A DNA stretch of 64,000 bases from Pseudomonadota bacterium (lineage in GTDB: Bacteria > Pseudomonadota > Alphaproteobacteria > Rhizobiales > Aestuariivirgaceae): the NCBI GenBank assembly GCA_963205315.1, contig CAUJIO010000008.1:62001-126000 (forward strand). The letters are read 5' to 3'. Numbering within the stretch: the stretch's first letter is position 1; each line of letters begins with the position of its first letter. Positions 1 through 64,000 of this stretch are shown one piece after another. The translations under genes were made by a program, and so were the position numbers. Under the pieces are notes generated by a model. It saw only the letters and a program-made list of their open reading frames with translations. It ran no database searches and had not been told where the DNA came from.

Positions 1-483
1 CAATACGCGAAAGCCATGGGCCTGCGCGTCGCCGCCGTCGACGTTTCGGACGAGAAGCTGTCGTTGGCGAAGTCGCTTGGCGCCGAAGTGACCGTCAATG
101 GCGCCGAGACCGATGCCGTTGCGGCTGTGCAGGAAAAGATTGGTGGCTCTCACGCCGCCGTCGTCACGGCCGTTGCCAGCAAGGCCTTTGAACAGGCAAT
201 CCTGATGCTGCGTCCCGGCGGCACCGTCGCCTATATCGGACTGCCCGGCGGCAAGGCGGATGAGATCCGTACATCCATTTCCGCCATCACCAACTGGGAA
301 TTGTCGGTGCGCGGGTCCAACGTCGGCACGCGCCAGGATCTGAACGAGGCTATCGCCTTCGCCACCAACGGCCTTGTGAAAGCAACCATCCGCACCGTGA
401 AACTGGATGAGATCAACACCGTGCTCGATGACATGCGCAAGGGCAAGATCGTTGGCCGCGTCGTGATTGACATGAAGGACTGA
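1..483 (+). CDS. Zinc-dependent alcohol dehydrogenase, C-terminal part (5' truncated by window edge)
   Basis: The reading frame is open from base 1 (QYAKAMGLRVAAVDVSDEKL), so the start lies outside the window. The visible 160 residues are the end of the Rossmann NAD(P)-binding domain and the C-terminal part of a medium-chain dehydrogenase. The QYAKAMG stretch, the acidic residue after the second beta strand (AVDVSD, usual for NAD preference) and GGTVAYIGLPGG are typical of AdhP-type alcohol dehydrogenases. The N-terminal catalytic zinc ligands are not visible, so substrate cannot be judged. It ends 38 bp before the convergent FAD-GcvT gene. Confidence 0.85.
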   Translation, partial: QYAKAMGLRVAAVDVSDEKLSLAKSLGAEVTVNGAETDAVAAVQEKIGGSHAAVVTAVASKAFEQAILMLRPGGTVAYIGLPGGKADEIRTSISAITNWELSVRGSNVGTRQDLNEAIAFATNGLVKATIRTVKLDEINTVLDDMRKGKIVGRVVIDMKD

Positions 484-489
484 GCGTAT

Positions 490-504
490 CGGCCTGCAAG
501 GCCG
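490..504. terminator. Short GC hairpin between convergent genes
   Basis: A perfect 6-bp stem (CGGCCT / AGGCCG) with a 3-base loop lies between the stop of the alcohol dehydrogenase and the stop of the convergent FAD-GcvT gene. There is no T-run on either side, so a terminator role is only suggested by position. Confidence 0.3.
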
Positions 505-521
505 GGGTCCCCACTCTGACA

Positions 522-2939
522 TCAATTCCGCAGTCTCACGCCCTCCGGATCGAAAGGAGGAGCGGAGAGTACGCGCGCAGTGTGGGCCCTGCCGAGAATG
601 GCAACCTGCAGTTCCGTTCCGGCGGCAGCAAGTCCCGCCTTGAGGTAGGCGATGGCCAGTGACTTGCCGACGAAGTAGCCGTAGGCGCCGGAACTCACCT
701 GACCTGCCGGAGTGCCATCGGTCAGGAAGACCGGTTCTCCGCCCGTGGCATCGGCTTCACGCGCATCGATCTCGAGCATCACCATGACATCGCGTGGCGG
801 CTTGCCGGCGATGGCTTGCCAGGCCGTCTTGTTGAGAAAATCCTTGTCGGCCTTGACGAGTTTGCCAAGCCCGCATTCCTGCGGCCAGTATTCGGGGCTG
901 TAGTCGCGACCCCAGCTGCCATAGCCTTTCTCGACTCGCAGGCTCATCAGCGCGCGTGAGCCGACGGGACCCGCGCCCAGTTCGCGGCCCTGGTTGAGTA
1001 AGGCCGTGTAGAGCTTCACCTGATCGGCTTCAGCGCAGTGAAGTTCCCAGCCGAGATCGCCAGTGAAGGACACGCGGATGGCAACGACATCGACGCCCGC
1101 CACGGTGATGCGCTGCGATCGCATGAACGGGAAAGATGTGTTTGAAAGATCGGTGTTGGTTAGGCGTTGCAGGATCTCGCGCGATTTCGGACCCGCCACG
1201 TTGAAGCCGCACATTGACTCCGTCAGCGAACGGAACACGGTTGAGGCAGGCAGGGGAACGGCGCGGAAAAAGCGCTGATGAAAGCGCTCGGCCATGCCGG
1301 AGCCGACGATCATGAACTCGTCCGGCCCGAGCCGCGTCACGGTGAAATCACCGGCAATGCCGCCGCGTTTGCCGATGAGCGGCGTGAGGCAGGAACGGCC
1401 AACTTCGCGCGGCATGCGATTGGCAAAGACGGCGTTGAGCCAGTCTTCCGCGCCGGGGCCTTTCGCTTCGTATTTCGCAAAGTTCGAAATGTCGATGATG
1501 CCGGCGTGCTCGCGCAGCATCAGCGCCTCGCGGCCCACCGGCGCCCACCAGTTCTGCCGGGTGAAGCCAACGGTCTCTTCCCTGGGTTCGCCGTCGGCCG
1601 AGAACCACAGCGGATGTTCCCATCCAAAATTCAGGCCGAAGATGGCGCCCATCTGCCTCTGCAGGTCATAGGCGGGACGGGTGCGCACCGGCCGGCCGGC
1701 CGCGCGTTCTTCAGTCGGAAAATGGATCTTGAACCGGTTCGCATATTGGTCGCGCACCCGCGCCTTGGTGAAGTCGCGGGTGGCCCAATGGCCGAAACGC
1801 GCGAGGTCCCAGCCGAACATGTCGAGCGACGGCTCGCCCTCGATCATCCATTCCGCCGCGAGCTTTCCAAGTCCGCCTGATTGCGAGAAGCCGGGGATGA
1901 TGCCGCAGCAGCAGAAGTAGTTCTTCAGTTCCGGCACTGGCCCGAAGAGCGCCGCACTGTCAGGTGACCAGATCATCGGGCCATTGATGACGCGCTTGAT
2001 GCCGGCCGTTGCCGCAACGGGAATGCGCGTCATGGCGCGCGACACGTTCTCTTCTATGCGCGATAGGTCGTCGGGAAACAGCTCGTGGCCGAAGTCCGCG
2101 GGCGTTCCGTCCTCGGCCCAGAATTTCATGTCTTTCTCATAGGCGCCGATCAGCAGACCCAGCCCTTCCTGGCGGAGATAGTATTCGCCGTCGCGGTCGC
2201 CGATCGACGGCAGGCGGCGGCCGATGGCGGCGATCTCCGGTATCGTCTCGGTAACGAAATACTGGTGCTCGGTGGGGATCAGCGGCAGCGTCAGCCCGGC
2301 CATGGCCGCCACTTCGCGCGCCCAGAGGCCTGCCGCGTTGATGACCCATTGCGTGTGGATGTCGCCTTTGGCCGTGCGGACGATCCAGCTCCCATCGGGC
2401 TGGGCTTCGGTGGCCGTCACCGGCGTGAAGCGGTGGATCTCGGCGCCGCGTTGCCGGGCACCCGCCGCATAGGCCATGGTGACACCGGACGGATCGACAT
2501 TGCCGCCGTCCGGCTCGTACATGATGCAGCGGATGCCATCGAAGTCGGCCAGCGGATGCAGCCGTTCTGCCTCGGCACGGCTCACCTCGTGGAAGTTCAT
2601 GCCGTAGCGCTTCGCCTTGGCGGCCTGCAGCCGCAGCTGATGTTCGCGGGCTTCCGTTTGAGCCAGATAGAGCGAACCGGGCTGGAACACGCCGCAGCCC
2701 TGGCCGGTCTCTTTCTCGAGCTCCTTGTAGAGCGTCATCGTATAGTGCTGCAGCCGGCTGATGTTGGTTGAATCATGCAGGCCGTGGATGCCGGCGGCGG
2801 CATGCCATGTCGAACCGCTGGTGAGTTCGCTGCGCTCCAGCAACACGGCGTCCGTCCAAGCGTGTTTGGCGAGATGATAGAGGATGGAGCAGCCGATGAG
2901 GCCACCGCCGATGACGACGGCCTGGGCATGGGTTCGCAT
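522..2939 (-). CDS. FAD-dependent oxidoreductase fused to GcvT-like domain (dimethylglycine/sarcosine dehydrogenase type)
   Basis: This 805-aa protein has the two-part layout of dimethylglycine and sarcosine dehydrogenases. An N-terminal DAO-type FAD domain opens with a dinucleotide motif (VVIGGGLIGCSILYHLAK, about residues 8-25). It is followed by an FAO-M-like linker and a C-terminal GcvT/aminomethyltransferase half (from about residue 430; note GPKSREILQRLT and SFTGDLGWELH). The family oxidatively demethylates N-methyl amino acids and passes the C1 unit to tetrahydrofolate. The start ATG overlaps the TGA of the upstream MttB-family gene (TGATG), indicating translational coupling. A paralogue lies at 61695-64000. 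The exact substrate (dimethylglycine, sarcosine or another N-methyl amine) cannot be read from sequence. Confidence 0.88.
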   Translation of the reverse strand: MRTHAQAVVIGGGLIGCSILYHLAKHAWTDAVLLERSELTSGSTWHAAAGIHGLHDSTNISRLQHYTMTLYKELEKETGQGCGVFQPGSLYLAQTEAREHQLRLQAAKAKRYGMNFHEVSRAEAERLHPLADFDGIRCIMYEPDGGNVDPSGVTMAYAAGARQRGAEIHRFTPVTATEAQPDGSWIVRTAKGDIHTQWVINAAGLWAREVAAMAGLTLPLIPTEHQYFVTETIPEIAAIGRRLPSIGDRDGEYYLRQEGLGLLIGAYEKDMKFWAEDGTPADFGHELFPDDLSRIEENVSRAMTRIPVAATAGIKRVINGPMIWSPDSAALFGPVPELKNYFCCCGIIPGFSQSGGLGKLAAEWMIEGEPSLDMFGWDLARFGHWATRDFTKARVRDQYANRFKIHFPTEERAAGRPVRTRPAYDLQRQMGAIFGLNFGWEHPLWFSADGEPREETVGFTRQNWWAPVGREALMLREHAGIIDISNFAKYEAKGPGAEDWLNAVFANRMPREVGRSCLTPLIGKRGGIAGDFTVTRLGPDEFMIVGSGMAERFHQRFFRAVPLPASTVFRSLTESMCGFNVAGPKSREILQRLTNTDLSNTSFPFMRSQRITVAGVDVVAIRVSFTGDLGWELHCAEADQVKLYTALLNQGRELGAGPVGSRALMSLRVEKGYGSWGRDYSPEYWPQECGLGKLVKADKDFLNKTAWQAIAGKPPRDVMVMLEIDAREADATGGEPVFLTDGTPAGQVSSGAYGYFVGKSLAIAYLKAGLAAAGTELQVAILGRAHTARVLSAPPFDPEGVRLRN

Positions 2940-4477
2940 CAGGGTTCTCCTCCTCCGATTTCGGCGCGCCGGCGCGCGACATAGTCATCAAGTTCCTCGC
3001 GAATGGCGGGGTCCGTGGCCGGCTCCTCGTATTCTTTCAGTGCCTGTTGCCACAGGGAGGTGGCGCGCTCCAGGGCGTCGCGCGAGCCCGAGGCTTCCCA
3101 CGCCCCGTGATTCTGCCAGTCTGACAGCATGGGCCGGTAGAACGCCGACTCGTAGCGCGACATGGTGTGTTCGGCCCCGAAGAAGTGCCCGCCCGCCGGA
3201 ACCGACTTGATGGCCTCGAACCCGAGGTCGTCCTCGCTGAAGGACAGGGGTTGCAGGAACTCCATCATGTTCTGCAGGATCTCAACGTCGAGGATCAGCT
3301 TTTCGTAGGACGCGGTCAGGCCGCCCTCGAGCCAGCCCGCCGCGTGATAGATCATGTTGGCGCCGCCCAGCACCGCGCCCCAGGTCGCCATGCCGGTTTC
3401 ATAGGTCGCCTGAAGGTCGACGGCATTCGACGCATTGGAATTCGAACTGCGATAGGGCAGGCCATAGCGCCTGGCCAGTTGGCCGCCGATGACGTTGGCC
3501 TTGGTGTTTTCCGGCGTGCCGAAGGCGGGAGCGCCTGAGCGCATGTCGACATTCGAAGTGAAGCCGCCATACATGACGGGCGTTCCAGGATTGATCAGCT
3601 GGGTGAGCGCCACGCCGAACAGGGCTTCGGCATTTTGCTGCGCCAGTGCGGCGGCGAGCGTCACGGGCGTCATCGCGCCCATCAACGTGAAGGGCGTGAC
3701 GGTCACCGGCTGGCCGTGCTCCGCCATCACGGTCAGGCCGTCGGTCATGGCGTCGTCGAGCAGGCGCGGCGAGTTGACCGAGATGATGGTGATGACGCCG
3801 GGGGAAGCCCGCATCTGTTCGAGCGTGTGGCCACGCGCAATAGCCATCATCTTGATTCCATCAAGTGCCCGGCCCCGGCCGATGGCCGTGCAGTGAAAAC
3901 AGCGGTCACTCAGTGTGAGATTGGCGCGATAGGTGTCGAGGTGGCGTGAATTGGCGGGAAGCTCCATCGGTGCCACAACCTGGTTGCCGATGATGTGAAT
4001 GGCATTGAAGTGATGCGCCAGCCGGATGAAGTTCTGATAGTCGGTGAGATTGCCCGGCCTTCGGCCGTTGACGCGGTCATGCACATTGGGCGGGCCCGCG
4101 ACAAGTCCAAAGGTGAGCGCCTTGCCACCAAGTGTGAGCACTTTCGCCGGATTGCGGCTGGTCAGCGTGAACGACGCCGGCGCCTGCTTGATGGCCTGCA
4201 TGATCAGGCTCTCATCCGCGCGGATGATGCGTTCGCCCCGGTCAACGATGGCGCCCGCCTGTTCGAACAGGTCCATCACCTTCTCGCTCATCACCTTGAT
4301 GCCGAGTTCCGACAGGATGCGCATCGACGTGCGGTGCAACGATTGAAGCTGCTCGCCGTTCAGGATTTCGAGAGGCGCGTAGGCGTTGATGACGCCACGC
4401 CACGGAAGTTGCGGAATTGCACCGCTGCTGCGGCCGGCGCGTGCCTTGCGTCCTCCGCCCCGTCCTTCATTGCTCAT
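2939..4477 (-). CDS. Trimethylamine methyltransferase (MttB) family protein, non-pyrrolysine type
   Basis: A 512-aa member of the MttB superfamily (COG5598), recognisable by HAAGWLEGGLTASYEKLILD and the NVIGGQLARRYGLPYRSS block, which recur in the paralogue at 49500-51077. True trimethylamine methyltransferases carry an in-frame amber codon read as pyrrolysine. This gene is uninterrupted, so it belongs to the non-Pyl group, of which MtgB is a glycine betaine:corrinoid methyltransferase. An Arg/Gly-rich N-terminal stretch (GRGGGRKARAGRSSG) precedes the conserved domain. It is the first gene of a two-gene unit with the FAD-GcvT enzyme (1-bp overlap). No corrinoid protein gene is nearby. Substrate and methyl acceptor are unknown; a quaternary amine is my inference. 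Confidence 0.88.
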   Translation of the reverse strand: MSNEGRGGGRKARAGRSSGAIPQLPWRGVINAYAPLEILNGEQLQSLHRTSMRILSELGIKVMSEKVMDLFEQAGAIVDRGERIIRADESLIMQAIKQAPASFTLTSRNPAKVLTLGGKALTFGLVAGPPNVHDRVNGRRPGNLTDYQNFIRLAHHFNAIHIIGNQVVAPMELPANSRHLDTYRANLTLSDRCFHCTAIGRGRALDGIKMMAIARGHTLEQMRASPGVITIISVNSPRLLDDAMTDGLTVMAEHGQPVTVTPFTLMGAMTPVTLAAALAQQNAEALFGVALTQLINPGTPVMYGGFTSNVDMRSGAPAFGTPENTKANVIGGQLARRYGLPYRSSNSNASNAVDLQATYETGMATWGAVLGGANMIYHAAGWLEGGLTASYEKLILDVEILQNMMEFLQPLSFSEDDLGFEAIKSVPAGGHFFGAEHTMSRYESAFYRPMLSDWQNHGAWEASGSRDALERATSLWQQALKEYEEPATDPAIREELDDYVARRRAEIGGGEP

Positions 4478-4675
4478 GCCGCCGGTCCTGTGAAATGGAT
4501 GGTCAAGCTTAGCGCAACCCGCCGCGATCGGAACCGGAATCTGCCAACCCGTCTCGGAATGCGGTTGCGTTCGGCATGGGCCATGACGTGCAGTTCTAGA
4601 AGGAGTGTTTTCCGCGCAGCGGCCAGCGCAAGGACGTTGTCCCGCTGCAGAACGCTCAAGCCAGGCGGAACGGCT
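4478..4675. other. Intergenic region upstream of the mttB-like gene
   Basis: About 198 bp separate the mttB-like start from the end of the M20 amidohydrolase on the same strand. It should carry the promoter of the mttB/FAD-GcvT unit. A short palindrome TTCTAGAA occurs near 4594. I see no convincing RNA gene or riboswitch. A short minus-strand frame running across it looks accidental. Confidence 0.4.
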
Positions 4676-5824
4676 TCACGCAACAGGCAGCCGCCGCCGC
4701 GCAATGGCAACGTGAACATTCATGCCGTGGAGCAGGGCGTCATCGTTGAAGTCGTAGGACGGATTGTGCAGAGGTGCCGAGGCTTCCCCGTTGCCGATAA
4801 ACAGGAAGCAGCCCGGCACATGGCTGAGGAACTGCGCAAAGTCCTCAGATCCCGTCATGGGCTCGCAGTCGTTTCCCACGCGGGCGGACAAGGGGGCACA
4901 GGCCGACAAGGCGTCTCGCGTGAGTTCGGGATCGTTGAGCAGAGGCACAAATTCGCGGGTGTAGGTCACGTCGCTTTCGATGGCATGCTGAAGCGCGTTT
5001 CCGGCCACGATCCGGCGCATTTCCTTCTCGATCATGGCGGAGACTTCAGGGCGGAAGCTGCGGGCGTCTCCCTTGATTCGCGCTTCACCGGGAAGCGCAT
5101 TTCGCGTGCCGTCGGTCAGTAATTCGGTCACCGACACGACGGCCACATCGGCGGGGCTGAGGCGACGGGCGACGATGGTTTGCAGGTCCATGACGAGGGC
5201 GCACGCCGGAACCAATACTTCGCGCCCCCACTGGGGGCGTGCGGCATGTCCACCCTGGCCTTTCAGGACGATCTCGAAATTGTCTTCTGCCGCCATAACG
5301 GCGCCGGGGCGTGATTCAACATGGCCGATGGGGAGGCCAGGCATGTTATGCAGGCCGTAAATCTCTTCAAATGGAAAACGGGTGAGAAGGCCGTCGTTGA
5401 GCATGGCAAGTGCGCCGCGGCCCCATTCCTCGGCCGGCTGGAAGATGAAGCGAATGGTGCCATCAAATCCGCCGTCTTCTGCCAGGGTCCGGGCTGCGCC
5501 AAGCAACATCGTGGTATGCCCGTCATGTCCACAGGCATGCATGGTTCCAGGAGTGCGCGACTTCCACTCCGTGTTGCCAGTTTCCGCAATGCGCAAGGCG
5601 TCCATGTCGGCACGAAGCGCGATGGCCCGGTTCGACTTGCCTGCCTTCAATGTGCCGACGACGCCCGTACCTCCGATACCTTCTGCGACGTCCAGCCCGA
5701 AGCTGCGCAATGTCTCCGCCACGAAAGCCGCCGTGCGCTTTTCTTCAAATCCGAATTCCGGATGCTGGTGCAAGTCGCGCCGCCATGCCACCAACTGCTG
5801 CTGCAAGTCTGAATGAGACGTCAT
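4676..5824 (-). CDS. M20D family amidohydrolase (hippurate hydrolase-like)
   Basis: A 382-aa metal-dependent amidohydrolase of the M20D/HipO type (hippurate, N-acyl- or N-carbamoyl-amino acid hydrolases). Metal-site and catalytic motifs are intact: LRADMDAL, HACGHDGHTTMLLGAA, the Glu-Glu pair in FQPAEEWGRGA, GLHNMPGLP and the C-terminal MTGSEDFAQFL. The interior lid/dimerisation domain contains GGHAARPQWG. Its ATG overlaps the 3' end of the upstream diaminopropionate ammonia-lyase gene by 4 bp, so the pair is probably translated together. The E. coli yge cluster also places an M20 hydrolase (ygeY) beside ygeX/dpaL. Soluble cytoplasmic enzyme; the physiological substrate is unknown, but an N-acylated diamino acid would suit the partner. 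Confidence 0.87.
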   Translation of the reverse strand: MTSHSDLQQQLVAWRRDLHQHPEFGFEEKRTAAFVAETLRSFGLDVAEGIGGTGVVGTLKAGKSNRAIALRADMDALRIAETGNTEWKSRTPGTMHACGHDGHTTMLLGAARTLAEDGGFDGTIRFIFQPAEEWGRGALAMLNDGLLTRFPFEEIYGLHNMPGLPIGHVESRPGAVMAAEDNFEIVLKGQGGHAARPQWGREVLVPACALVMDLQTIVARRLSPADVAVVSVTELLTDGTRNALPGEARIKGDARSFRPEVSAMIEKEMRRIVAGNALQHAIESDVTYTREFVPLLNDPELTRDALSACAPLSARVGNDCEPMTGSEDFAQFLSHVPGCFLFIGNGEASAPLHNPSYDFNDDALLHGMNVHVAIARRRLPVA

Positions 5825-7020
5825 GTTGATTGCCCCTCCATCACCTCGGGGGCTGTCGCCCCGACAATGTCGTGATACATGCCCGGGTCAGTCGCACCCT
5901 CGGTGTTGATGACGAGGACGCGCGATTGTTTTCCGAGCCCGATGTTTTGTGCGGTCTCCCGATCGTTCACTGCGGCTAGCAACCCTGCGAGTCCGGCGCC
6001 GCCGCTTTCGCCGGCCACGATGGCGGGGTCGCCGTTTTCGGGCCGGGCGAGCAGGCGCATCACTGCGATGGCCTCATCGTCCTCTATGGTCATGAATCCA
6101 TCCGAAACGCGTTCCAGAATTCGGAAAGCCACCATTGATGGTTCGTAGCATTCCAGCATGGCCATTACTGTCGGGAATGATTCCGCGATCTTGTGGGCTT
6201 GACCTGTTTGCGCGCTCTCGAACAGGCAGGCCGCACGGGAGGGCTCGACGATAGTGACATGCGGACGCCTGTTCCCCAGCTGAGTGAACATATGGCCTGC
6301 CACGCCTGCAGCAAATCCGCCAACGCCGGCCTGCAGGAACACGTGGGTCGGAGGCTGGTCCAGCGCGTTCAGGGCTTCGCGCACTAGAAGGGTGTAGCCT
6401 TGCATGACAAGCGAGGGGATGCGTTCATAGCCGTGCCACGATGTGTCGGACAGGACTGTCCAGTTTTCACGTGCTGCAACGCGTGCGGCCTCCGCGACGG
6501 AATCGTCATAGTTACCGGATACGCGCACCATCTGTGCGCCGAACTTCGCTATGGCCGCAATGCGGGCATCGCTCACCCCCGCATGCACGAAGATCACGGC
6601 CCTTGCTCCCATCATCTGCGCGCCTTGCGCCACCGAACGGCCGTGATTGCCATCGGTGGCGCAAGCGAAGGTCAGGCTGGATGCAATGCCGCGCACGGCA
6701 GGCGATGAAAGTTCGGACACCGGTACAGCCCGGCCTAGTCTGCGCGTGGCCTCTTCCTTCACAAGCTTCATCAGCGCGAATGCGCCGCCCAAGGCCTTGA
6801 AGCTGCCGAGGCCAAGGCGGAAGCCTTCGTCCTTCACGTGCAGCGCCGCAAGGCCAAGACGATTCGCCAGCGCAGGCAGGCTGTGCAGCGGCGTTGTATC
6901 ATTGCCGGCACGCACCGCATGGAAGCAGGCAACCTCGTCGGCGGCTGCCGTGTCGAGGTACACGGCATCCTGGGGCAACAGCGCATCACCGTGGCGGGGG
7001 AGGGTATTTTTCAGGTACAT
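5821..7020 (-). CDS. dpaL: Diaminopropionate ammonia-lyase
   Basis: A PLP enzyme of fold type II that converts 2,3-diaminopropionate to pyruvate and ammonia. The chosen ATG at 7020 (MYLKNTLPRHGD) gives 399 aa, close to the family length of about 400; the frame stays open to 7122 but the extra residues lack family character. The PLP lysine lies in GLGSFKALGG (Lys75 by this start) and the catalytic Asp in CATDGNHGRS. A glycine-rich phosphate loop is present (GESGGAGLAG). It overlaps the following M20 gene by 4 bp and is divergent from an AsnC-family regulator 71 bp away, which is the obvious candidate controller. Confidence 0.9.
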   Translation of the reverse strand: MYLKNTLPRHGDALLPQDAVYLDTAAADEVACFHAVRAGNDTTPLHSLPALANRLGLAALHVKDEGFRLGLGSFKALGGAFALMKLVKEEATRRLGRAVPVSELSSPAVRGIASSLTFACATDGNHGRSVAQGAQMMGARAVIFVHAGVSDARIAAIAKFGAQMVRVSGNYDDSVAEAARVAARENWTVLSDTSWHGYERIPSLVMQGYTLLVREALNALDQPPTHVFLQAGVGGFAAGVAGHMFTQLGNRRPHVTIVEPSRAACLFESAQTGQAHKIAESFPTVMAMLECYEPSMVAFRILERVSDGFMTIEDDEAIAVMRLLARPENGDPAIVAGESGGAGLAGLLAAVNDRETAQNIGLGKQSRVLVINTEGATDPGMYHDIVGATAPEVMEGQST

Positions 7021-7071
7021 TGGACAGCAATAGTCAATACGAGGCGAGAAAGGCGCTGTATTTTGATACCC

Positions 7072-7081
7072 ATTATGTAAT
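7072..7081. promoter_or_regulatory. AT-rich dyad in the dpaL / AsnC-regulator divergent region
   Basis: The sequence ATTATGTAAT (ATTA / TAAT arms) sits in the 71-bp divergent spacer, 10 bp before the regulator start. Lrp/AsnC proteins bind AT-rich imperfect dyads, so it may be an autoregulatory site. It could equally be part of a -10 region. The evidence is position and symmetry only. Confidence 0.35.
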
Positions 7082-7091
7082 TTTGTTGCGT

Positions 7092-7553
7092 ATGGCTGAC
7101 ATCGACGATTTCGACCGGGCAATTCTGCGCATCCTGCAAGTGGACGCCCGTACGCCGCAACGGGAAATTGGCAAGGCCGTGAACCTGTCGGCCCCCGCGG
7201 TGCAACGGCGTATCAAGCGCATGGAAGAGCAAGGTGTGATCGCCGCCACCGTGGCACAGGTCGCGCCCGAGGCCGTCGGCCTGCCCGTGACGATTGTTGT
7301 CGAGGTGGAGCTTGTGAGCGAAACGCTGCAAGACATCGACGAAATGAAACACCGCTTCAGATCCGCCCCGGAAGTGCAGCAATCTTACTACGTTACCGGA
7401 GATGCGGATTTTGTCCTGGTGCTCGTCGTGGAAAACATGACCGCCTACGAGGATTTCACCCGCCGGCATTTCTTTCAGCACGGCAACGTCAAGAAGTTCC
7501 GGACATTTGTTTCGATGGATACCGTCAAGCGGGGAACTCTGGTCAAACTCTGA
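7092..7553 (+). CDS. Lrp/AsnC family transcriptional regulator
   Basis: This 153-aa protein starts at MADIDDFDRAILRILQ, the standard Lrp N-terminus; the upstream in-frame extension is antisense to dpaL and was discarded. An N-terminal helix-turn-helix (about residues 5-60, with REIGKAVNLSAPAVQRRIKRME) is followed by the RAM ligand-binding and oligomerisation domain (about 65-150, YYVTGDADFVLVLVV). It is transcribed divergently from dpaL and the coupled M20 amidohydrolase, which suggests amino-acid-responsive control of that operon. The effector is unknown. Confidence 0.92.
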   Translation: MADIDDFDRAILRILQVDARTPQREIGKAVNLSAPAVQRRIKRMEEQGVIAATVAQVAPEAVGLPVTIVVEVELVSETLQDIDEMKHRFRSAPEVQQSYYVTGDADFVLVLVVENMTAYEDFTRRHFFQHGNVKKFRTFVSMDTVKRGTLVKL

Positions 7554-7658
7554 ACTCTTGGACGTCTCGCGATGACGCCATCATTCAAGAAGCGTCACGC
7601 CCGCAATGTCGTGCCTTTCCCAATTGAGTGGCCGCGCAGCCTGCGCTAAACCCTGGCC

Positions 7659-8684
7659 ATGACCAACAACTCGCCGCGCTCCGTGGCGCGCGGCAAAGTC
7701 TTCGCCGTTGCGCCCATGATGGACTGGACCGACCGGCATTGCCGGATGTTCCACCGTCAGATCACGCGCCATGCGCTGCTTTACACGGAAATGGTAACGG
7801 CGATGGCCATCCGCCATGGCGACCGTCAGCGGCTGCTGGGGTTCGACCAGCGCGAACAGCCCCTGGCCCTGCAGATTGGCGGCAGCGAACCTGCAAGCCT
7901 GGCGGAAGCGTCGAGATGGGGTGAGGATTTCGGTTACGGCGAAATCAACCTCAATGTGGGCTGTCCGTCGGACCGTGTGCAGGAGGGGCGGTTCGGCGCC
8001 TGCCTGATGGCCGAGCCTGCACTGGTGCGCGATTGTATCGGCGCCATGCGCGATGCGGTGTCTGTTCCCGTCACCGTCAAGTGCCGCATCGGCATCGACG
8101 ATCAGGATGACGAAGAGGATTTCGACCGCTTTATCGAAACCGTGAGCCAGTCGGGCTGCACCACATTCATCGTCCATGCCCGCAAGGCCTGGCTGAAGGG
8201 GCTGTCACCGAAGGAAAACCGGGACATTCCGCCCCTCAATTATCATCGAGTATACCGGCTGAAGCAGAACCGGCCTGGACTCAACATCATCATCAATGGC
8301 GGCATCAATACGCTGGACGAGGCGGAGGCGCACCTCCCCCATGTTGACGGCGTGATGCTCGGCCGGGCGGCCTATCACACACCCTGGATCCTCAATGAGG
8401 TCGATCGCCGTATCTACGGCTGCACGGATGAACCCGCCGCATCGCCGCTGGAGATCGTCGAGCGGATGAAGCCCTATATTTCCGAACAGCTGGCACGCGG
8501 TGTCTGGCTTCAGCACATCACGCGGCACATGATGGGCCTGTTTTCCGGTCTTCCCGGCGGCCGGCTGTGGCGGCGGGTGCTGTCGGAGCAGGCCTGCCGG
8601 CCCGGAGCCGGGCTCGACGTGCTGGAGCGGGCGGCAGCCGAAATCGCCTCGCGTCTGCAAGCACCGGCCCTGGCGGCGGAATAG
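7659..8684 (+). CDS. dusA: tRNA-dihydrouridine(20/20a) synthase DusA
   Basis: A 341-aa FMN- and NADPH-dependent enzyme that reduces uridine to dihydrouridine in the tRNA D-loop. The N-terminal TIM barrel starts with VAPMMDWTDRHCRMFHRQIT, the DusA signature. The catalytic Cys lies in NVGCPSDRVQEGRFGACLM. FMN-phosphate contacts are suggested by IINGGINTLDEA and GVMLGRAAYHTPW. A C-terminal helical tRNA-binding domain completes the protein, and the length matches DusA rather than DusB or DusC. It is monocistronic in appearance, with a GC-rich dyad after its stop. Confidence 0.95.
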   Translation: MTNNSPRSVARGKVFAVAPMMDWTDRHCRMFHRQITRHALLYTEMVTAMAIRHGDRQRLLGFDQREQPLALQIGGSEPASLAEASRWGEDFGYGEINLNVGCPSDRVQEGRFGACLMAEPALVRDCIGAMRDAVSVPVTVKCRIGIDDQDDEEDFDRFIETVSQSGCTTFIVHARKAWLKGLSPKENRDIPPLNYHRVYRLKQNRPGLNIIINGGINTLDEAEAHLPHVDGVMLGRAAYHTPWILNEVDRRIYGCTDEPAASPLEIVERMKPYISEQLARGVWLQHITRHMMGLFSGLPGGRLWRRVLSEQACRPGAGLDVLERAAAEIASRLQAPALAAE

Positions 8685-12995: not shown

Positions 12996-14948
12996 ATGCT
13001 GCAGGTGAAGGCGCTGGGCCGCTTTGCGGTCTTGAACGGGACTTGTCCGCTTCTGATCCCGGGAGTGCGCGACCGTGCGCTCCTGGCTTATCTTGCCATC
13101 ACCGGAACGTCGCAGAGCCGACAAAAGCTGGCGAGTCTGATCTGGCCTAGCAGGGGCGAAGAACAGGCCCGCCAAAGCCTTCGCCAATCATTGACCACGT
13201 TGCGCAAGATGGGCATCCCGATCCTCAGTGACGGCCGGGAGCGCGTCGGCCTGGGCTCAGGCATCGCCTGTGACACTCAGGCGTTCGTCGCCCACTGCCA
13301 GTCCGGAGTCTGGGCTTCGCTGCGTTCGGCGGTCGAGATCTACGAAGGCGAACTCCTTGCAGACTGGCCTGCCGATCTCGAAGAATTCGAGCAATGGCTG
13401 GTGCCGCAACGCGCCCATTTTTCCGCTATCGCTGTCCAGCTGTTGATGCGCCTGCTGAACTGGTCTGCCCCTCGGCCCGAACCGGCAGATCAACTGTTTC
13501 TGGCGAGAAAGGCGCTTGCCGTAGATCCCTACCTGGAAGCTGCGCACCGCGAGGAAATGCTGGCCCTGATCCGAATGGGCCTTCGAAGTGAGGCCCTTGT
13601 TGCACATCAGGATTTCAGCGGCTTGCTGTTGAAGGATCTTGGAATTGCGCCAGACGAACTCACGTGTGAGGTCGCTGCGCGCGCGCGCGTTTCCCCGGCA
13701 GCAGCAAATTCCGATGAGCCCGCGCAAAGAACACCGAAGCTGAGACCAAGGCTTGCTGTCTTTCCATTGCGAGTTGAGGCGGGATCCGAAGAACTGCACT
13801 ATCTCGCGCGTGGCATCATGTCGGAAATCGCCACTGTGCTCTCGCTCTTCCCCGGCATACAGGTCATTGCGCCGCAGTCTTCCTTCCGGCTGGCCGATGA
13901 TGAAGACAGGCTGGAGATCGCGGCGCGATCTTTGCGCGCGACGTTTGTCGCCGAGGGCACACTGAGTGCGACTGGCGATGTTCTGTTGGTGAAGTTCGAG
14001 TTGATCGATCTGAGCTCTGGCAGCATCGTGATGACGGAACTGCGGCAAGGTACGGCCATCGACTATCCGGCACTCATGCAGCATCTGGCTCATGCGATTG
14101 CCAACAAGATCGACAATCGCATTACTCACCTGCGGCGTTCGCTGTTCGAAGCGACGGAACCCGAGCGGCTTGCGGCCTGGGATATCTGGGTAAGGGGGCA
14201 GTTCATAACTGAACAGTGGACGGCCGCCGTGGAATCTCAGGCGGAAGCCCTGTTTCGCAAGGCCATCGCTGCGGATCCGACATTGGCACGGGCGCATTCA
14301 TCGCTGGCAATGCTGTACAACGGCCGAATTCTCGTCATGCCCGGACTTGCCAATGAGTCCGAACTCCGCACGCTGGCACTCGACCACGCCCGGCGCGCCA
14401 TCGAACTGGATCCCGTCGATCCGCGAAGTCATCTCGCGATGGCGTGGGTCAGCATATTTCTCTGCGACCTGCACCGGGCCAAGCGCCATGCGCAGCTCGC
14501 ATATGAATCAAATCCTCACTCGGCCGATGCGCTGATCCACGTCGGGCTGTTGAAGGCCTATCTCGGCGACGCCGCCAGTGGCCTCCGTCTTGCCGGCGAG
14601 GCCTTCGATCTCAATCCGCTGTTTCCGGATTGGTATCTTTACATGAAGTCCCAGATTCACATTCTTGCAGGTCAGCCACATGAGGCGTTGGAGATTGCGT
14701 CCGGCATCGCGGGCCGCTTTCTCGAGCTACCCGGCTGGCTCGTCGTTGCTGCCGCTGTGATAGACGATGATGCCGTCATGCATCAGATGGCCAGTTTGTT
14801 TCTCACTCAAACGTCTGAATCCTGGTCCGGGACGGTTCAATGGAGCCCGCTTCTTTCCGTGGAGTGGTTCCTGTCGGTCAACCGCTGGCTGGCGGACCGG
14901 GATCGGGAACTCCTGGTGCGAGGGCTGAAGAAAGCCGGACTGCTCTGA
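12996..14948 (+). CDS. SARP-like transcriptional regulator with BTAD, TolB-N-like and TPR regions
   Basis: A 650-aa multidomain protein. Residues 1-90 form an OmpR/SARP-type winged-helix region (RALLAYLAITGT, QSLRQSLTTLRK). About 95-230 is a bacterial transcriptional activation domain of TPR-like helices (YEGELLADWP, ARKALAVDPYLEAAHREEMLALIRMG). About 245-370 resembles the TolB N-terminal/adenylate-cyclase-associated domain (LAVFPLRV, YLARGIMSEIATVLS, FVAEGTLSATGDVLLVKFELID). From about 390 onward are TPR-type repeats (LFRKAIAADPTLARAHSSLAMLY, RAIELDPVDPRSHLAMAWVS). Such proteins are predicted cytoplasmic regulators. No ligand or target is indicated; the small secreted protein just upstream may be linked. 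Confidence 0.82.
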   Translation: MLQVKALGRFAVLNGTCPLLIPGVRDRALLAYLAITGTSQSRQKLASLIWPSRGEEQARQSLRQSLTTLRKMGIPILSDGRERVGLGSGIACDTQAFVAHCQSGVWASLRSAVEIYEGELLADWPADLEEFEQWLVPQRAHFSAIAVQLLMRLLNWSAPRPEPADQLFLARKALAVDPYLEAAHREEMLALIRMGLRSEALVAHQDFSGLLLKDLGIAPDELTCEVAARARVSPAAANSDEPAQRTPKLRPRLAVFPLRVEAGSEELHYLARGIMSEIATVLSLFPGIQVIAPQSSFRLADDEDRLEIAARSLRATFVAEGTLSATGDVLLVKFELIDLSSGSIVMTELRQGTAIDYPALMQHLAHAIANKIDNRITHLRRSLFEATEPERLAAWDIWVRGQFITEQWTAAVESQAEALFRKAIAADPTLARAHSSLAMLYNGRILVMPGLANESELRTLALDHARRAIELDPVDPRSHLAMAWVSIFLCDLHRAKRHAQLAYESNPHSADALIHVGLLKAYLGDAASGLRLAGEAFDLNPLFPDWYLYMKSQIHILAGQPHEALEIASGIAGRFLELPGWLVVAAAVIDDDAVMHQMASLFLTQTSESWSGTVQWSPLLSVEWFLSVNRWLADRDRELLVRGLKKAGLL

Positions 14949-49499: not shown

Positions 49500-51077
49500 T
49501 CAGCTCACATTGTCCGGCAGCACTTCCTTGCGCTTGGCCATGAAGGCCAGCAGCTGCTCGTCGATGCCCGGATCCAGAGCCGGGGCCTCATAGTCGTTGA
49601 GCATCTTCTTCCACGTCGCATTGGCGCGGACGACGATGTCCTTCTCGCCATCGTCGCGCCATTGCTCGTAGCTGTTGTTGTCGGCCAGCCCTGAGCGCCA
49701 GAATGCCGTTTCGAAATTGGCCTGCGTGTGGGCACAGCCGAGGTAGTGGGATCCGGGGCCAACCTCGCGGATGGCGTCCATTGCCTGGCCATTTTCCGAG
49801 AAGTCGACACCTTCGGCGAGTTTCTGGAACATCGTGAGCTGGTCGGCGTCCATGATCAGCTTTTCATAACCGGAGGCGAGCCCGCCTTCCAGCCAGCCTG
49901 CCGCGTGCAGACAGAAATTCACGCCCGACATCAGCGTTGGCCACATGGTGTTCGCGCTTTCATAGGCGGCTTGCGCATCGGCCACCTTGGAGCCGCACAG
50001 GCTGCCGCCGGAGCGGAAGGGCACACCCAGGCGCCGCGCCAGCTGGGCCGCGCCGAACGTCACCATTGCGGGCTCCGGCGAGCCGAACGTCGGCGCACCC
50101 GATTGCATGGACATCGATGCGGCGAAGGTGCCGAACACCACTGGCGCACCGGGGCGGCACAGCTGCGTGAAGGCGATGCCGACGGAAGCCTCTGCCAGAA
50201 TCTGCGTCAGCGTTCCGACGGTGGTGACCGGAGACATGGCGCCAGCCACGATGAAGGGCGAGATTACGCAGGCCTGATTGGCGCGTGCCAGAACCTTCAG
50301 CGCGCCCAGCATGACGCCATCCCAGACCATGGGTGAATTGGCGTTGATCAGCGAGGTCATGACGCAATTCTGGTCCACGAACTCCTTGCCGAACACCATT
50401 TCCGCCATGGCGACGGAATCAGCCGACCTTTCGCCCGCCGTGACCGAGGCCATGAAGGGTTTGTCGGAGTACTTGATGTGGGTGTAGATCATGTCGAGAT
50501 GGCGCTTGGCCACCGGAATATCCACCGGCTCACACAACGTGCCGCCGGCATGATGCAAGCTCGGCAGCATGTAGACGAGTTTTGCGAAATTGCGGAAATC
50601 CTCGATGGTCGCGTAGCGGCGGCCTTCATCGAGATTGCGGATGAAGGGCGGTCCATAGACCGGCGCGAACACCATGTTGTTGCCGCCGATCGTGACGCTG
50701 TTGGCGGGGTTGCGCGCATGCTGCACGTATTCACGCGGCGCCGTCTTGATCAGCGATCGCACCAGTCCCTTCGGGAAACGGACGCGGAAGCGCTTGGGAT
50801 CGGCCGCCGATGCCTTTACATCGGCCCCGGCGTCCTTCCACATGCGGACCGCTTCTTCGTCTTCGTAGAAGTCGATGCCGGTTTCCTGCAACACGGTTTC
50901 CGCATTGCGCTCGATCAGTTCGAGCTGCTCGTCGCTGAACGGCTCGTAAGGCTTGACCGCGCGGCGGATGAAGCCTGCCTGCTTCACCGTGGTCGAGGTG
51001 CGGGCCGTACGGCGGGCATCGGCGCCACCGCGGCCACGGCGGCCGGTGGGGGCAGTTGCGGGCTGGACATCGGTCAT
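49500..51077 (-). CDS. Trimethylamine methyltransferase (MttB) family protein, second copy
   Basis: A 525-aa non-pyrrolysine MttB homologue with no in-frame amber. It shares HAAGWLEGGLASGYEKLIMD, GAAQLARRLGVPFRSGGS, SPMVWDGVMLGALKVLARAN and YEAPALDPGIDEQLLAFMAKRKE with the general family pattern seen at 2939-4477. It too has an Arg/Gly-rich N-terminus (GRRGRGGADARRTART). The ATG at 51077 is preferred over a GTG at 51107. Unlike the first copy it is monocistronic with its own terminator. A corrinoid partner is missing here too. The substrate is unknown, probably a quaternary amine. Confidence 0.88.
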   Translation of the reverse strand: MTDVQPATAPTGRRGRGGADARRTARTSTTVKQAGFIRRAVKPYEPFSDEQLELIERNAETVLQETGIDFYEDEEAVRMWKDAGADVKASAADPKRFRVRFPKGLVRSLIKTAPREYVQHARNPANSVTIGGNNMVFAPVYGPPFIRNLDEGRRYATIEDFRNFAKLVYMLPSLHHAGGTLCEPVDIPVAKRHLDMIYTHIKYSDKPFMASVTAGERSADSVAMAEMVFGKEFVDQNCVMTSLINANSPMVWDGVMLGALKVLARANQACVISPFIVAGAMSPVTTVGTLTQILAEASVGIAFTQLCRPGAPVVFGTFAASMSMQSGAPTFGSPEPAMVTFGAAQLARRLGVPFRSGGSLCGSKVADAQAAYESANTMWPTLMSGVNFCLHAAGWLEGGLASGYEKLIMDADQLTMFQKLAEGVDFSENGQAMDAIREVGPGSHYLGCAHTQANFETAFWRSGLADNNSYEQWRDDGEKDIVVRANATWKKMLNDYEAPALDPGIDEQLLAFMAKRKEVLPDNVS

Positions 51078-51199
51078 GGGGGTACAAGCCTGTTGAGAAG
51101 TTTTCACGTGACCATTGCTTTACGCTCACCAGACCGGGCCGGCGCGGGAAGAAACGTCAGGGGATGGCCGGGAAACGACCTTGCCAATGTCCGAAGGCG

Positions 51200-55619: not shown

Positions 55620-56879
55620 GTGTCCAAACATTATTCAGCTTTCACCCTCGCCCGCCATGCGCTCCAGCCGGACTTGCCCTGGGAGCGCGCCTGGGCTTCA
55701 CCCGAGCCGAAGAAATCCTACGATGTCGTCATCGTCGGAGGCGGCGGCCATGGCCTCGCGACCGCCTATTACCTCGCGCGCAACCACGGAATCCGCAACG
55801 TCGCCGTCATTGAGCGCAACTACATCGGCTCCGGCAATGTCGGCCGTAACACCACGCTCATCCGTTCGAATTACATGATTGGCGGCAACACAGCCTTTTT
55901 CGAACATTCGCTGAAGCTGTGGGAAGGCCTCAGCCATGAACTGAACTTCAACTGCATGGTCTCGCAGCGGGGGCAGATCGTGCTGGCGGCAAATCCGGTG
56001 CAGATGGATGTCTTCGCGCGGCGTGGCAACATCATGCGGCTGAACGGCATTGACGCCGAACTGCTTGACTGTGGCGACGTCATGAAACTGCTCCCTTATC
56101 TCGACTATTCGAAGGACGCGCGCTGGCCCGTCTGCGGCGCCATCATGCAGCCGCGCGCGGGCACCGTGCGCCACGATGCGGTCGCCTGGGGCTATGCCCG
56201 CGCCGCCAGCGATCTCGGCGTCGACATCATCGAGAATTGCGAAGTGACAGGTTTCGTCATTGATGAGGGCAAGGTCTCGGGCATTGAAACGTCGCGCGGC
56301 CGCATCAACGCAGGCAAGGTCGGAATCGCGGTTGCGGGCCACACCTCGCATGTGGCGAAGATGGCTGGCCTACGGTTGCCGGTGGAAAGCCACATCCTGC
56401 AGGCTTTCGTCACTGAGCCGATCAAGCCCATCGTGCATCATGTGGTGAGCTGGGGTGCGGAACTGTTCTATCTTTCGCAGTCCGACAAGGGCGGCCTCGT
56501 CTTCGGCGCGCATATCGACGGCTTCAACACCTATACGCAGCGCGGCCAGTTCCCGCGTATCCAGACGGTCGCGGAATGTGCCGTGTCGTTGATGCCGTTT
56601 ATCTCGAGGCTCAGATTGCTGCGTCACTGGGGTGGCATTCAGGACATGACGCCGGACGGCAGTCCCTTCATCTGCCGAACCGATGTCCGCAACCTCTATC
56701 TCAATGGCGGCTGGTGCTATCAGGGGTTCAAGGCGACGCCTGCTTCGGGCTGGACCTATGCCCACACCATCGCTCACGACGAGGAGCATGAACTCAATCG
56801 CTGCTTCTCGCTCGACCGCTTCGCGAAAGGCCGCGAACTCGATGAGTTCGGCCTCGGCAACTGGACCTACAAGCAATGA
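55620..56879 (+). CDS. soxB: Sarcosine oxidase subunit beta
   Basis: A 419-aa flavoprotein subunit of heterotetrameric sarcosine oxidase, which oxidises sarcosine to glycine. The FAD motif is DVVIVGGGGHGLATAYYLARN (about 36-56). ERNYIGSGNVGRNTTLIRSNY and the HSLKLWEGLSHELNFN region are characteristic of SoxB, and a covalent FMN is expected at the interface with SoxA. The start is GTG at 55620. It is the first gene of soxBDAG with 4-8 bp overlaps throughout. Confidence 0.95.
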   Translation: MSKHYSAFTLARHALQPDLPWERAWASPEPKKSYDVVIVGGGGHGLATAYYLARNHGIRNVAVIERNYIGSGNVGRNTTLIRSNYMIGGNTAFFEHSLKLWEGLSHELNFNCMVSQRGQIVLAANPVQMDVFARRGNIMRLNGIDAELLDCGDVMKLLPYLDYSKDARWPVCGAIMQPRAGTVRHDAVAWGYARAASDLGVDIIENCEVTGFVIDEGKVSGIETSRGRINAGKVGIAVAGHTSHVAKMAGLRLPVESHILQAFVTEPIKPIVHHVVSWGAELFYLSQSDKGGLVFGAHIDGFNTYTQRGQFPRIQTVAECAVSLMPFISRLRLLRHWGGIQDMTPDGSPFICRTDVRNLYLNGGWCYQGFKATPASGWTYAHTIAHDEEHELNRCFSLDRFAKGRELDEFGLGNWTYKQ

Positions 56880-61694: not shown

Positions 61695-64000
61695 TTAGCC
61701 GCGCATCCGCTTGCCTTCGGGATCGAACGGCGGCTCGGTGATGATCGTTGCCTTGCGGTTCTCGCCGATGATCTCGATCTCGAAAGCGCCGGTTGACGTA
61801 TCCCCCGCCAGCTCTTTCGGCACATAGCCCTGTGCCATCGACTTGTCGACGTAATGCGCGAAACCACCCGACGTGACCCAGCCGACCACCTTGCCCTTGT
61901 GCCAGATCGGCTCGTCGCCCAGCACGTCGGCATCACCGGCCTCGACGATCATCGACACGCGCCGCAAGGTGCCGCCGTTGCGCTTCTCTTCCATCGCCGC
62001 CTCGCGGCCGATGAAGTCATTCTTGGTGAGGTCGATGAAGCGGTCCATGCCGGCTTCGAAGCCGCCGTAGATCGGGCGCAACTCGCGATACCAGGTCGGG
62101 AAGTTCTTTTCGAGACGCATCGCGAGCAGCGCCCGCATGCCGAAGTTGACGATGCCATGGGCAGCACCCACCTTCATGATCTCCTGATAGAGACGCCGCT
62201 GATAGTCGGGCGCCACCCAGATTTCATAGCCGAGATCGCCGGTATAGGTGACGCGGTTGATGAGCGCCGGACAATGGGCGATGTCCATGGCGCGATGGTC
62301 CATGAAGCGGAAGGCGGCGTTCGACACGTCTTCATCGGTGAGCTGCGCCAGCACGTCGCGGGACTTCGGCCCGGCGATCGACAGGCCGACGAGGCCCATG
62401 TCATAGCGGTGGATCTTCACCGAACCATCGGCGGGCAGATTCTGTTCGAACCAGCGCATATGATATTTCTGCGCCTGTGAAGAGCCCCACATGTAGAAGC
62501 AGTCGTCCGACGCCTTGGCGATGGTGAAGTCGCCGATCAGCTTTCCTTGTGGATTGAGCATCGGCGTGAGGATGAGGCGTCCGGTCTTCGGCATCTTGTT
62601 GGTCATCAGCCGCGACAGATAGGCTTCCGCGCCCAAACCGGTGAAGCGGTACTTGGCGAAGTTGGCGATCTCGGTGACGCCAACGCCATTGCGCGTGCCG
62701 AGGACTTCCGCCTTCACATGCGCGAAGTCATTGGAGCGGCGGAACGATACGATGTCCTTGGGTTCGACGCCCTTGGGTGCAAACCACAAGGGTGTTTCGA
62801 GACCCCACGAGTCGCCCATCACCGCGCCTTGCGACAGCATGATGTCGTAGAGGGCGGTGGTTTGCTGCGGCCGTGCGGCGGGAAGTTCCTCATTGGGGAA
62901 GCGGATCGAGAAGCGCCGCGAATAGTTCTCGCGCACCTTCTCGTTGGTATAGGTGCGCGTTGCCCATTCGCCGAAGCGGGCGCAATCCATCGCCCACACA
63001 TCGAAGCCTGGATCGCCGTTCACCATCCATTGCGACAGGGCAAGGCCTACACCGCCGCCCTGGCTGAAGCCCGCCATCACGCCGCACGCAAGCCAGAAAT
63101 TGCGCACACCCTGAACCGGACCGACGATCGGGTTGCCGTCCGGCGTGAACGTGAACGGCCCATTGATGACGCGCTTGATGCCGGCATTGGCCAGCGCCGG
63201 GAAATGCTTGTAACCGAGCTCCAGATTCGGCGCGATCCGGTCGAGATCGGGCTGCAGCAGCTCGCGGCCGAACTGCCAGGGCGTGTTCTTGGGGCTCCAC
63301 GGCACGCAGGCCTGCTCATAAGTCCCGAGCACCATGCCTGAGCGTTCCTGCCGCATGTAGATCTCGGACTTGAAGTCGATGATATGCGGCAGTTCGTGGC
63401 CGCGCTCCTTGTTGTAGGCCACGACCTCCGGCATCTCGTCGGTGACGAGATACATGTGTTCCATTGCCAGCACCGGCAGCTCGATGCCCACCATGCGGCC
63501 TACTTCGCGCGCCCACAGGCCGCCGCAGTTCACCACATGCTCGGCGTGGATGTTGCCCTTGGCGGTGATCACGTCCCACGTGCCATCGGCCCGCTGCTTC
63601 AGGCCTTCCACCTTGCAGTCCTGATAGATCTCGGCCCCGCCGATGCGCGCCGACTTTGCATAGGCATGCGTCGTGCCTTCCGGATCGAGATTGCCGTCGG
63701 CCTTGTCGATCATTGCGCCGACGAAGAATTTCTCTTCCAGCAGCGGATGCATCTTCTTGGCTTCCGCCATCGAGATGATCTCGGTCTCGAGGCCCAAGTA
63801 GCGGGCGCGGGCATGCGCCATCTTCAGCCATTCCATGCGCTGCGGCGTGTCTGCGAGGATCAGCCCGCCCGAACGGTGAAGCCCGCAGGCCTGGCCGGAA
63901 ATCTTTTCCAGCTCATTGTAGAGGGCAATGGTGTAGCCCTGCAGCTTCGCGACATTCGGATCACCGTTCAGGGTATGGAAGCCGCCGGCCGCATGCCATG
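61695..64000 (-). CDS. FAD-dependent oxidoreductase fused to GcvT-like domain, second copy (5' end beyond window)
   Basis: The frame is open to the window edge and reads upstream of residue MEWLKMAH into HAAGGFHTLNGD, matching the region HAAAGIHGLHDS of the paralogue at 522-2939. The visible ~768 residues contain the end of the FAD domain (VVNCGGLWAREVGRMVGIELP, GIKRVINGPFTFTPDGNPIVGP in parts) and the GcvT half (VTEIANFAKYRFTGLGAEAYLSRL, GPKSRDVLAQLT, VTYTGDLGYEIW). It is a dimethylglycine/sarcosine dehydrogenase-type enzyme that would pass a C1 unit to tetrahydrofolate. The FAD GxGxxG motif lies outside the window. It runs convergently towards soxBDAG across two small genes. Confidence 0.87.
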   Translation of the reverse strand, partial: WHAAGGFHTLNGDPNVAKLQGYTIALYNELEKISGQACGLHRSGGLILADTPQRMEWLKMAHARARYLGLETEIISMAEAKKMHPLLEEKFFVGAMIDKADGNLDPEGTTHAYAKSARIGGAEIYQDCKVEGLKQRADGTWDVITAKGNIHAEHVVNCGGLWAREVGRMVGIELPVLAMEHMYLVTDEMPEVVAYNKERGHELPHIIDFKSEIYMRQERSGMVLGTYEQACVPWSPKNTPWQFGRELLQPDLDRIAPNLELGYKHFPALANAGIKRVINGPFTFTPDGNPIVGPVQGVRNFWLACGVMAGFSQGGGVGLALSQWMVNGDPGFDVWAMDCARFGEWATRTYTNEKVRENYSRRFSIRFPNEELPAARPQQTTALYDIMLSQGAVMGDSWGLETPLWFAPKGVEPKDIVSFRRSNDFAHVKAEVLGTRNGVGVTEIANFAKYRFTGLGAEAYLSRLMTNKMPKTGRLILTPMLNPQGKLIGDFTIAKASDDCFYMWGSSQAQKYHMRWFEQNLPADGSVKIHRYDMGLVGLSIAGPKSRDVLAQLTDEDVSNAAFRFMDHRAMDIAHCPALINRVTYTGDLGYEIWVAPDYQRRLYQEIMKVGAAHGIVNFGMRALLAMRLEKNFPTWYRELRPIYGGFEAGMDRFIDLTKNDFIGREAAMEEKRNGGTLRRVSMIVEAGDADVLGDEPIWHKGKVVGWVTSGGFAHYVDKSMAQGYVPKELAGDTSTGAFEIEIIGENRKATIITEPPFDPEGKRMRG

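Follow-up and report, generated by a model that had tools for sequence, protein, structure and literature searches.

An MttB-family methyltransferase gene overlapping an FAD-GcvT gene in an alphaproteobacterium: a candidate two-step demethylation module

Introduction

Ruegeria pomeroyi demethylates glycine betaine via MtgBCD(E), an aerobic system described in 2025 from mtgC and mtgD mutants and, for the pfam06253 proteins, from proteomics (PMC12478193, drawn on here, like the other papers cited, in excerpt). According to the same source, up to seven pfam06253 open reading frames (ORFs) occur per genome, with diverse methylated compounds suggested as their substrates, and mtgBCD often has genes for the subsequent demethylation steps in its vicinity. 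Here we analyze a stretch of 64,000 nucleotides (nt) from an alphaproteobacterium of the family Aestuariivirgaceae (C8:62001-126000; below, the window), and in it two overlapping genes, encoding an MttB-family methyltransferase and a putative flavin- and folate-dependent demethylase, FAD-GcvT. The genome (4.67 Mb, 112 contigs) is rated 99.86% complete. The features of the pair are as follows.

2939..4477, minus strand: MttB-family (PF06253) methyltransferase, non-pyrrolysine, 512 residues; candidate first demethylase (quaternary amine to corrinoid protein); from ORF and Pfam
522..2939, minus strand: FAD-GcvT of the dimethylglycine dehydrogenase type, 805 residues; candidate second demethylase (tertiary amine to methylene-tetrahydrofolate); from ORF and Pfam
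2937..2941, minus strand: TGATG, with one base common to the mttB stop and the FAD-GcvT start; from sequence
2947..2956, minus strand: GGAGGAGGAG, Shine-Dalgarno-like motif within the mttB 3' end, 7 nt ahead of the FAD-GcvT ATG; from sequence

The locus resembles the Ruegeria system in that pfam06253, MtgC-type, pterin-binding MtgD, homocysteine MtgE, RamA/RACo and DUF1638 proteins are found in both, pfam06253 paralogues are many (up to seven reported there, eight here) and later demethylation genes are often nearby; it differs in that the pair and mtgC are on separate contigs and the MttB pocket lacks two of the four residues predicted for glycine betaine. The MtgB of Desulfitobacterium hafniense (2qne, 9yce) is of the same family (about 318 bits), is likewise devoid of pyrrolysine and shares the pocket Arg and His; however, it comes from an anaerobe, and its Y94, N199 and F353 are replaced by Ala, Ser and Gly in the window MttB. 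The pyrrolysine-containing MttB of Methanosarcina (7xcm) belongs to the same superfamily (151.1 bits). As for FAD-GcvT, it aligns over nearly the whole chain, including the covalent-FAD His motif, with dimethylglycine dehydrogenase (human 5l46, rat 4pab) and dimethylglycine oxidase (1pj5), and shares the folate-domain Asp with the latter; nevertheless, the similarity is only moderate (615.8 and 307.2 bits), and the human dehydrogenase has Glu instead of Asp at the position of D531.

We consider it probable, judging from the sequences, that the pair is a two-step module for corrinoid-dependent and then flavin-dependent demethylation of a carboxylated quaternary amine (betaine). The observations behind this reading are the genes themselves, their domains and key residues, the candidates for a corrinoid system, the co-occurrence with MtgC and the recurrent adjacency. 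In the first step MttB would move one methyl group from the quaternary amine to Co(I) of the single MtgC-type protein of the genome, which would be common to this enzyme and the other seven MttB paralogues. From the corrinoid, the methyl group would be transferred to tetrahydrofolate by an MtgD-like protein or could be used for methionine by an MtgE-like one, while a RACo-type protein, together with DUF1638, would reactivate oxidized cobalamin. In the second step the FAD domain of FAD-GcvT would oxidize the tertiary amine left by MttB, and its GcvT domain would trap the carbon in the form of methylene-tetrahydrofolate, the way dimethylglycine dehydrogenase does.

Structure of the gene pair

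The 512-residue protein matches PF06253 with 681.6 bits (cut-off 25) over profile positions 1-500 of 500, which places it in the MttB superfamily. With TIGR02369, the model of the pyrrolysine-type trimethylamine methyltransferase, it reaches 291.8 bits (cut-off 525), and its ORF runs over 512 uninterrupted codons without an in-frame stop or pyrrolysine. Its partner carries the DAO, FAO_M, GCV_T and GCV_T_C domains in one chain, all four above the cut-offs, as expected of an FAD-GcvT protein, and is under the cut-off of all 24 NCBIfam families listed.

The preliminary description of this DNA had stated that the mttB stop and the FAD-GcvT start share a base and that the two genes are translationally fused. 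The shared base is confirmed (base 2939, within TGATG on the minus strand). As to the fusion, there are two ORFs, and, because FAD-GcvT has a ribosome-binding motif of its own 7 nt before its ATG, the genes encode two separate proteins; they overlap and are probably translationally coupled, not fused. A one-base gene overlap inside an operon is unremarkable by itself. Among eight orthologous pairs, the closest start codon in the FAD-GcvT frame overlaps mttB by 14 nt (L097, L100) or 4 nt (L102), lies either 1 nt past mttB or in a 14-nt overlap (L101), or is found 24-123 nt past mttB (L099, L098, L091, L068). Since the junction differs in this way, a tight junction is common and the one-base overlap is not fixed. 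Scanning of positions 400-7700 for promoters and terminators gave no promoter-like sites and six terminator-like sites against 6.0 expected.

An apparent gene fusion of FAD-GcvT and MttB in genome G106, where a 1412-residue open frame extends across MttB, was rejected. Its translation corresponds to MttB in the last part only, the upstream part is not FAD-GcvT-like and the FAD-GcvT tblastn match there must be in another frame, so that we regard the long frame as an artefact of high guanine and cytosine content.

Corrinoid system of the genome

It had also been claimed that the pair is accompanied by no corrinoid protein. This is true of the 64-kb window, in which no B12-binding domains were found, the sole PF02607 and PF02310 matches of the genome (E up to 0.001) being on contigs C103, C78 and C82 and the window on C8. 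It is not true of the genome, which encodes one MtgC-type corrinoid protein with B12-binding_2 and B12-binding domains (C103:63380-64078); the negative is an effect of the window. The MtgC-type gene adjoins three MttB genes and has DUF1638 and S-methyl_trans (MtgE-like) genes near it. The protein scores 207 bits with the best MtgC model (cut-off 370) and 173.5 bits with the general cognate-corrinoid model (cut-off 215.3), and the MtgE-like protein scores 145.3 bits (NCBIfam cut-off 453). Candidates for both a reductive activase and a methylcorrinoid:tetrahydrofolate methyltransferase are encoded on C110. The former, a RACo-type protein of 684 residues, is above the cut-off of PF14574 and has 396.6 bits against 800 for AcsV and 104.8 against 500 for RamA; the latter, an MtgD-like Pterin_bind protein of 319 residues (C110:11673-12632), is above the cut-off of NF005719 and is named by NCBIfam a methyltetrahydrofolate:corrinoid/iron-sulfur protein methyltransferase (376.8 bits, cut-off 259). 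Thus, candidate genes were found for every part of the system (MtgC-type, RACo, MtgD-like, MtgE-like and DUF1638), along with eight PF06253 genes, two of them within the window. A corrinoid protein and a RACo-type reactivase elsewhere in the genome make up one half of the evidence that the preliminary description had named as refuting its corrinoid-free route, the other half being co-regulation with the pair; the genome search suggested together with that route yielded both an MtgC-type protein and an MtgD-like methyltransferase. Since the genome has no second B12-binding_2 match, no classical MetH was found by this domain test, in keeping with a split methionine synthase like that of Ruegeria/Phaeobacter.

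Several features of the C103 locus may be mentioned separately. Three MttB genes and the MtgE-like, DUF1638 and MtgC genes lie there within about 11 kb (L014:7005-18078), together with putative PsuG, PfkB and iron-sulfur (QueG-like) genes recognized by a look at the sequence, the QueG-like one without a Pfam match. The cluster is kept in a genome of the same genus (L082) at 63-96% identity. The MttB paralogue at L014:13057-14634 has an extremely long tree branch and lacks the conserved His; it carries a match to PYLIS_3, the pyrrolysine insertion sequence of Rfam, at 14114-14212, yet its frame contains no stop. When the window and three corrinoid/MttB loci were compared with Rfam at gathering thresholds, this was the only match, and no riboswitch was found.

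Co-occurrence with MtgC and RACo

Among 121 genomes of the order, an MttB match is present in 53, a relative of MtgC (at least 69% identity) in 55 and a RACo match in 57. Both MttB and MtgC are present in 51 genomes, MttB without MtgC in two and MtgC without MttB in four, and 64 have neither (Fisher p ~1e-26); the two genomes with MttB only are G026, which is 67% complete, and G096, whose best MttB match is weak (E 3.7e-26). For RACo the picture is similar: both are found in 51 genomes, MttB only in two (G016, G096) and RACo only in six. Orthologues of the window MttB are set apart, among the matches listed, by a gap in identity (57-79% for 12 matches in 11 other genomes, at most 53% for paralogues), and all 12 genomes that bear one, the present genome included, have MtgC and RACo. 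In 12 of 14 genomes picked from 80 named loci MtgC is full-length (79-95% identity); it is fragmentary in the genome of L102 (one 39-residue fragment only) and in that of L121 (several fragments). In G013, G098 and G071 one contig carries an MttB/FAD-GcvT pair together with MtgC and RACo, all within about 22, 19 and 29 kb, respectively.

These data bear on the earlier proposal that MttB passes its methyl group straight to FAD-GcvT, and thus to folate, without any corrinoid protein. Dimethylsulfoniopropionate demethylase is a GcvT-fold enzyme that transfers a methyl group to folate, so such enzymes using other donors do exist, and a sub-threshold match to NF009133 was found here; moreover, there is an overlap or almost no gap between the genes here and in about half of the eight orthologous pairs, and the pairing recurs in both gene orders. 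However, all parts of a corrinoid system have candidates in the genome, a close relative of its MtgC accompanies MttB in 51 of the 53 MttB-bearing genomes, close MttB orthologues adjoin other second-step enzymes or none, FAD-GcvT retains the residues for ordinary amine oxidation and folate use, and the characterized MttB-family enzymes described in PMC12478193 and PMC12155760 use a corrinoid. Direct transfer is therefore possible in principle but unlikely, and we regard it as extremely improbable for this pair.

As a side observation, orthologues of the window MttB with 55-68% identity were met in bins labelled Acidimicrobiia/Acidimicrobiales, Thermoleophilia and Mesoflavibacter (L103, L105, L107, L117, L120, L136, L154, L160), which suggests either horizontal transfer or mis-binned contigs.

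Recurrence of the pairing

The adjacency of MttB and FAD-GcvT genes recurs outside this locus. A same-strand FAD-GcvT gene within 1 kb, in either order, accompanies 27 of the 150 MttB matches listed, in 19 genomes (at most 12 MttB or 8 FAD-GcvT candidates being scored in genomes with more), and none was seen on the opposite strand; about 0.14 would be expected at random, assuming 4.5-Mb genomes and random placement. That a demethylated amine is handed from MttB to FAD-GcvT, as had been supposed, is the most likely link between the two, and the pairing is far above chance. In the present genome two of the eight MttB genes are paired (on C8 and C81). Among 92 loci with MttB orthologues, picked by MttB similarity alone (12 + 80 loci, with L075-L082, chosen partly for adjacency, excluded), FAD-GcvT is directly downstream in 33, of the window type in eight and of a second type (w2) in 25; it is elsewhere in the stretch in eight, absent in 46 and impossible to judge in five, where the stretch is too short. 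Sarcosine-oxidase-like loci were counted as absent here, and the gaps to the second type are overstated, the query being cut at the window end. Some loci without FAD-GcvT have weak matches that look like sarcosine oxidase genes. On a quick maximum-likelihood tree of 88 MttB proteins the paired state changes at least twice for the window type and at least four times for the second type on well-supported branches; the tree includes five of L075-L082 and omits 17 near-duplicate rows, and the counts for the second type lean on the chosen rows.

FAD-GcvT of the window type (at least 67% identity) was found in six of the 121 genomes, five of which also have the MttB orthologue (Fisher p 2e-5, among the matches listed); in the sixth, 71% complete, it is a fragment. 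This asymmetry, with FAD-GcvT rarely present without MttB and MttB often present without FAD-GcvT, suits an FAD-GcvT that acts on the product of MttB.

Several results weigh against the two-step module. With FAD-GcvT absent from the examined stretch in half of the loci (46 of 92), the pairing recurs without being obligatory. Among the matches listed, only five of the 12 genomes with the MttB orthologue have an FAD-GcvT of the window type, and the two are adjacent in just two of these, the present one and G039. About 11.5 kb separates them in G105, the distance is large in G044, and G024 has them on two contigs. The window MttB orthologue is missing, again among the matches listed, from G068 and G104, the two genomes of the same genus that were searched. 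As to the corrinoid system, its MtgC, RACo and MtgE-like members were named by Pfam domains and are under the NCBIfam cut-offs, as the scores above show, and MtgC (C103) and RACo (C110) are on contigs other than that of the pair.

The second pair of this genome, on C81 (L017:3920-10566), consists of two FAD-GcvT genes and MttB in a row with gaps of 2-3 nt, followed by a putative ATP-binding cassette (ABC) transporter ATPase gene, and is a candidate two-step module as well.

Pocket residues and the substrate

Docking predicted that Y94, N199, R309 and H345 of the D. hafniense MtgB contact glycine betaine (PMC6855144). The corresponding residues of the window MttB are A127, S233, R343 and H378, so that two of the four are kept. 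R343 and H378 do not vary among the 12 orthologues compared; the other two positions are Ala/Ser and Ser/Asn in them. Other identified substrates of the MttB family bear a carboxylate, which probably guides binding (PMC12155760). Because the Arg and His are kept, the other two contacts are changed and the known substrates are carboxylated, the substrate is likely to be a carboxylated quaternary amine, and probably not glycine betaine itself but another betaine.

This also makes it unlikely, in our estimate, that the pair is a redundant glycine betaine module, in which MttB is one more MtgB and FAD-GcvT one more dimethylglycine dehydrogenase. It is true that the best Protein Data Bank match of FAD-GcvT is dimethylglycine dehydrogenase, that the glycine betaine methyltransferase 9yce is the third-best match of MttB (317.7 bits; the best, 4yyc, deposited as a putative trimethylamine methyltransferase, has 354.8) and that some orthologues adjoin putative betaine-type ABC transporters, as read from the starts of the sequences. 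But the changes of Y94 to Ala and N199 to Ser, in contacts that are themselves docking predictions, do not favor such a function, and two paralogues in the same genome, at 49500-51107 of the window and on C85, keep all four contacts.

In FAD-GcvT the His/Asp pair of dimethylglycine oxidase is present: H46 lies in GSTWHAA, and D531 aligns with the Asp replaced by Ala in 3gsi. H46 would correspond, with an offset deduced by us, to the covalent His91 of human dimethylglycine dehydrogenase (PMC5082570).

Within the two-step reading, a narrower version is conceivable but doubtful: this MttB subgroup and FAD-GcvT would form a module dedicated to a betaine other than glycine betaine, the tertiary amine being channelled between physically associated partners, with a substrate new for the MttB family. 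The neighborhoods of the close orthologues did not help to name it. Annotation of 20 representative neighboring proteins revealed the MmgE/PrpD, LysR, M20/M24, isochorismatase, hydantoinase A/B, carbon-nitrogen hydrolase, amidohydrolase and DHDPS families, but these vary by clade and no single substrate fits them.

Other genes of the window

Besides the pair, the following genes are relevant.

4676..5824, minus strand: M20-family amidohydrolase, same direction as mttB and 198 nt upstream of it; uncertain whether part of the same operon, neighborhood not conserved; from ORF and family match
5821..7122, minus strand: diaminopropionate ammonia-lyase, sharing 4 nt with the M20 gene; NF006058, 502.2 bits, cut-off 276
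49500..51107, minus strand: another MttB-family gene, matching PF06253 with 747.9 bits; pocket with the Y/N/R/H set that was predicted to contact glycine betaine
61695..64000, minus strand: second FAD-GcvT gene, cut by the right window end; whole gene C8:123695-126130

The first two raise the question of whether the pair serves its neighbors: an N-methylated and N-acylated diaminopropionate would lose first the acyl and then the methyl groups before being split into pyruvate and ammonia. All four genes point in the same direction, and the first two and the last two overlap, with the 198-nt gap between; however, no relatives of the M20 and lyase genes were found at 20 + 80 other MttB loci (tblastn, E 1e-10 and 1e-8), a few of which have a different M20-family protein. 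We therefore dropped an operon with these genes as a key to the substrate and consider this route, a weak rival only, very unlikely.

The second MttB gene (49500-51107) and the second FAD-GcvT gene (61695 onward) were omitted from the preliminary description. The former, with all four predicted glycine betaine-binding residues, is the better MtgB candidate of the window. The latter follows, on the opposite strand, genes for sarcosine oxidase at 55620-60595 (plus strand), whose beta and alpha subunits are over the NCBIfam cut-offs and whose gamma subunit is under its own. Taken together, the genes at the right end are probably responsible for sarcosine/dimethylglycine catabolism, and the sarcosine oxidase genes would be consistent with an aerobic lifestyle of the host.

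Biological significance

Most likely, the pair belongs to the recently described aerobic MtgBCDE kind and does not represent new chemistry. The earlier notion of an undescribed route does not hold for the kind of pathway, as the excerpts of PMC12478193 already contain both aerobic MtgBCD(E) and the frequent proximity of later demethylation genes, and the locus weighs little as evidence for new corrinoid-free chemistry. In the open-access literature searched we recognized nothing on the substrate of this MttB subgroup or on a corrinoid-free MttB/FAD-GcvT route; as far as this literature goes, it is the substrate of the subgroup that is undescribed.

Aerobic alphaproteobacteria carry many MttB paralogues without assigned substrates. 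An MttB paralogue paired with a specific FAD-GcvT offers a handle for such assignment, since what the first enzyme releases should be a substrate of the second. The genome also suggests that in an aerobe one corrinoid protein may serve many methyltransferases (eight here), as was proposed for Ruegeria and reported for several Eubacterium enzymes.

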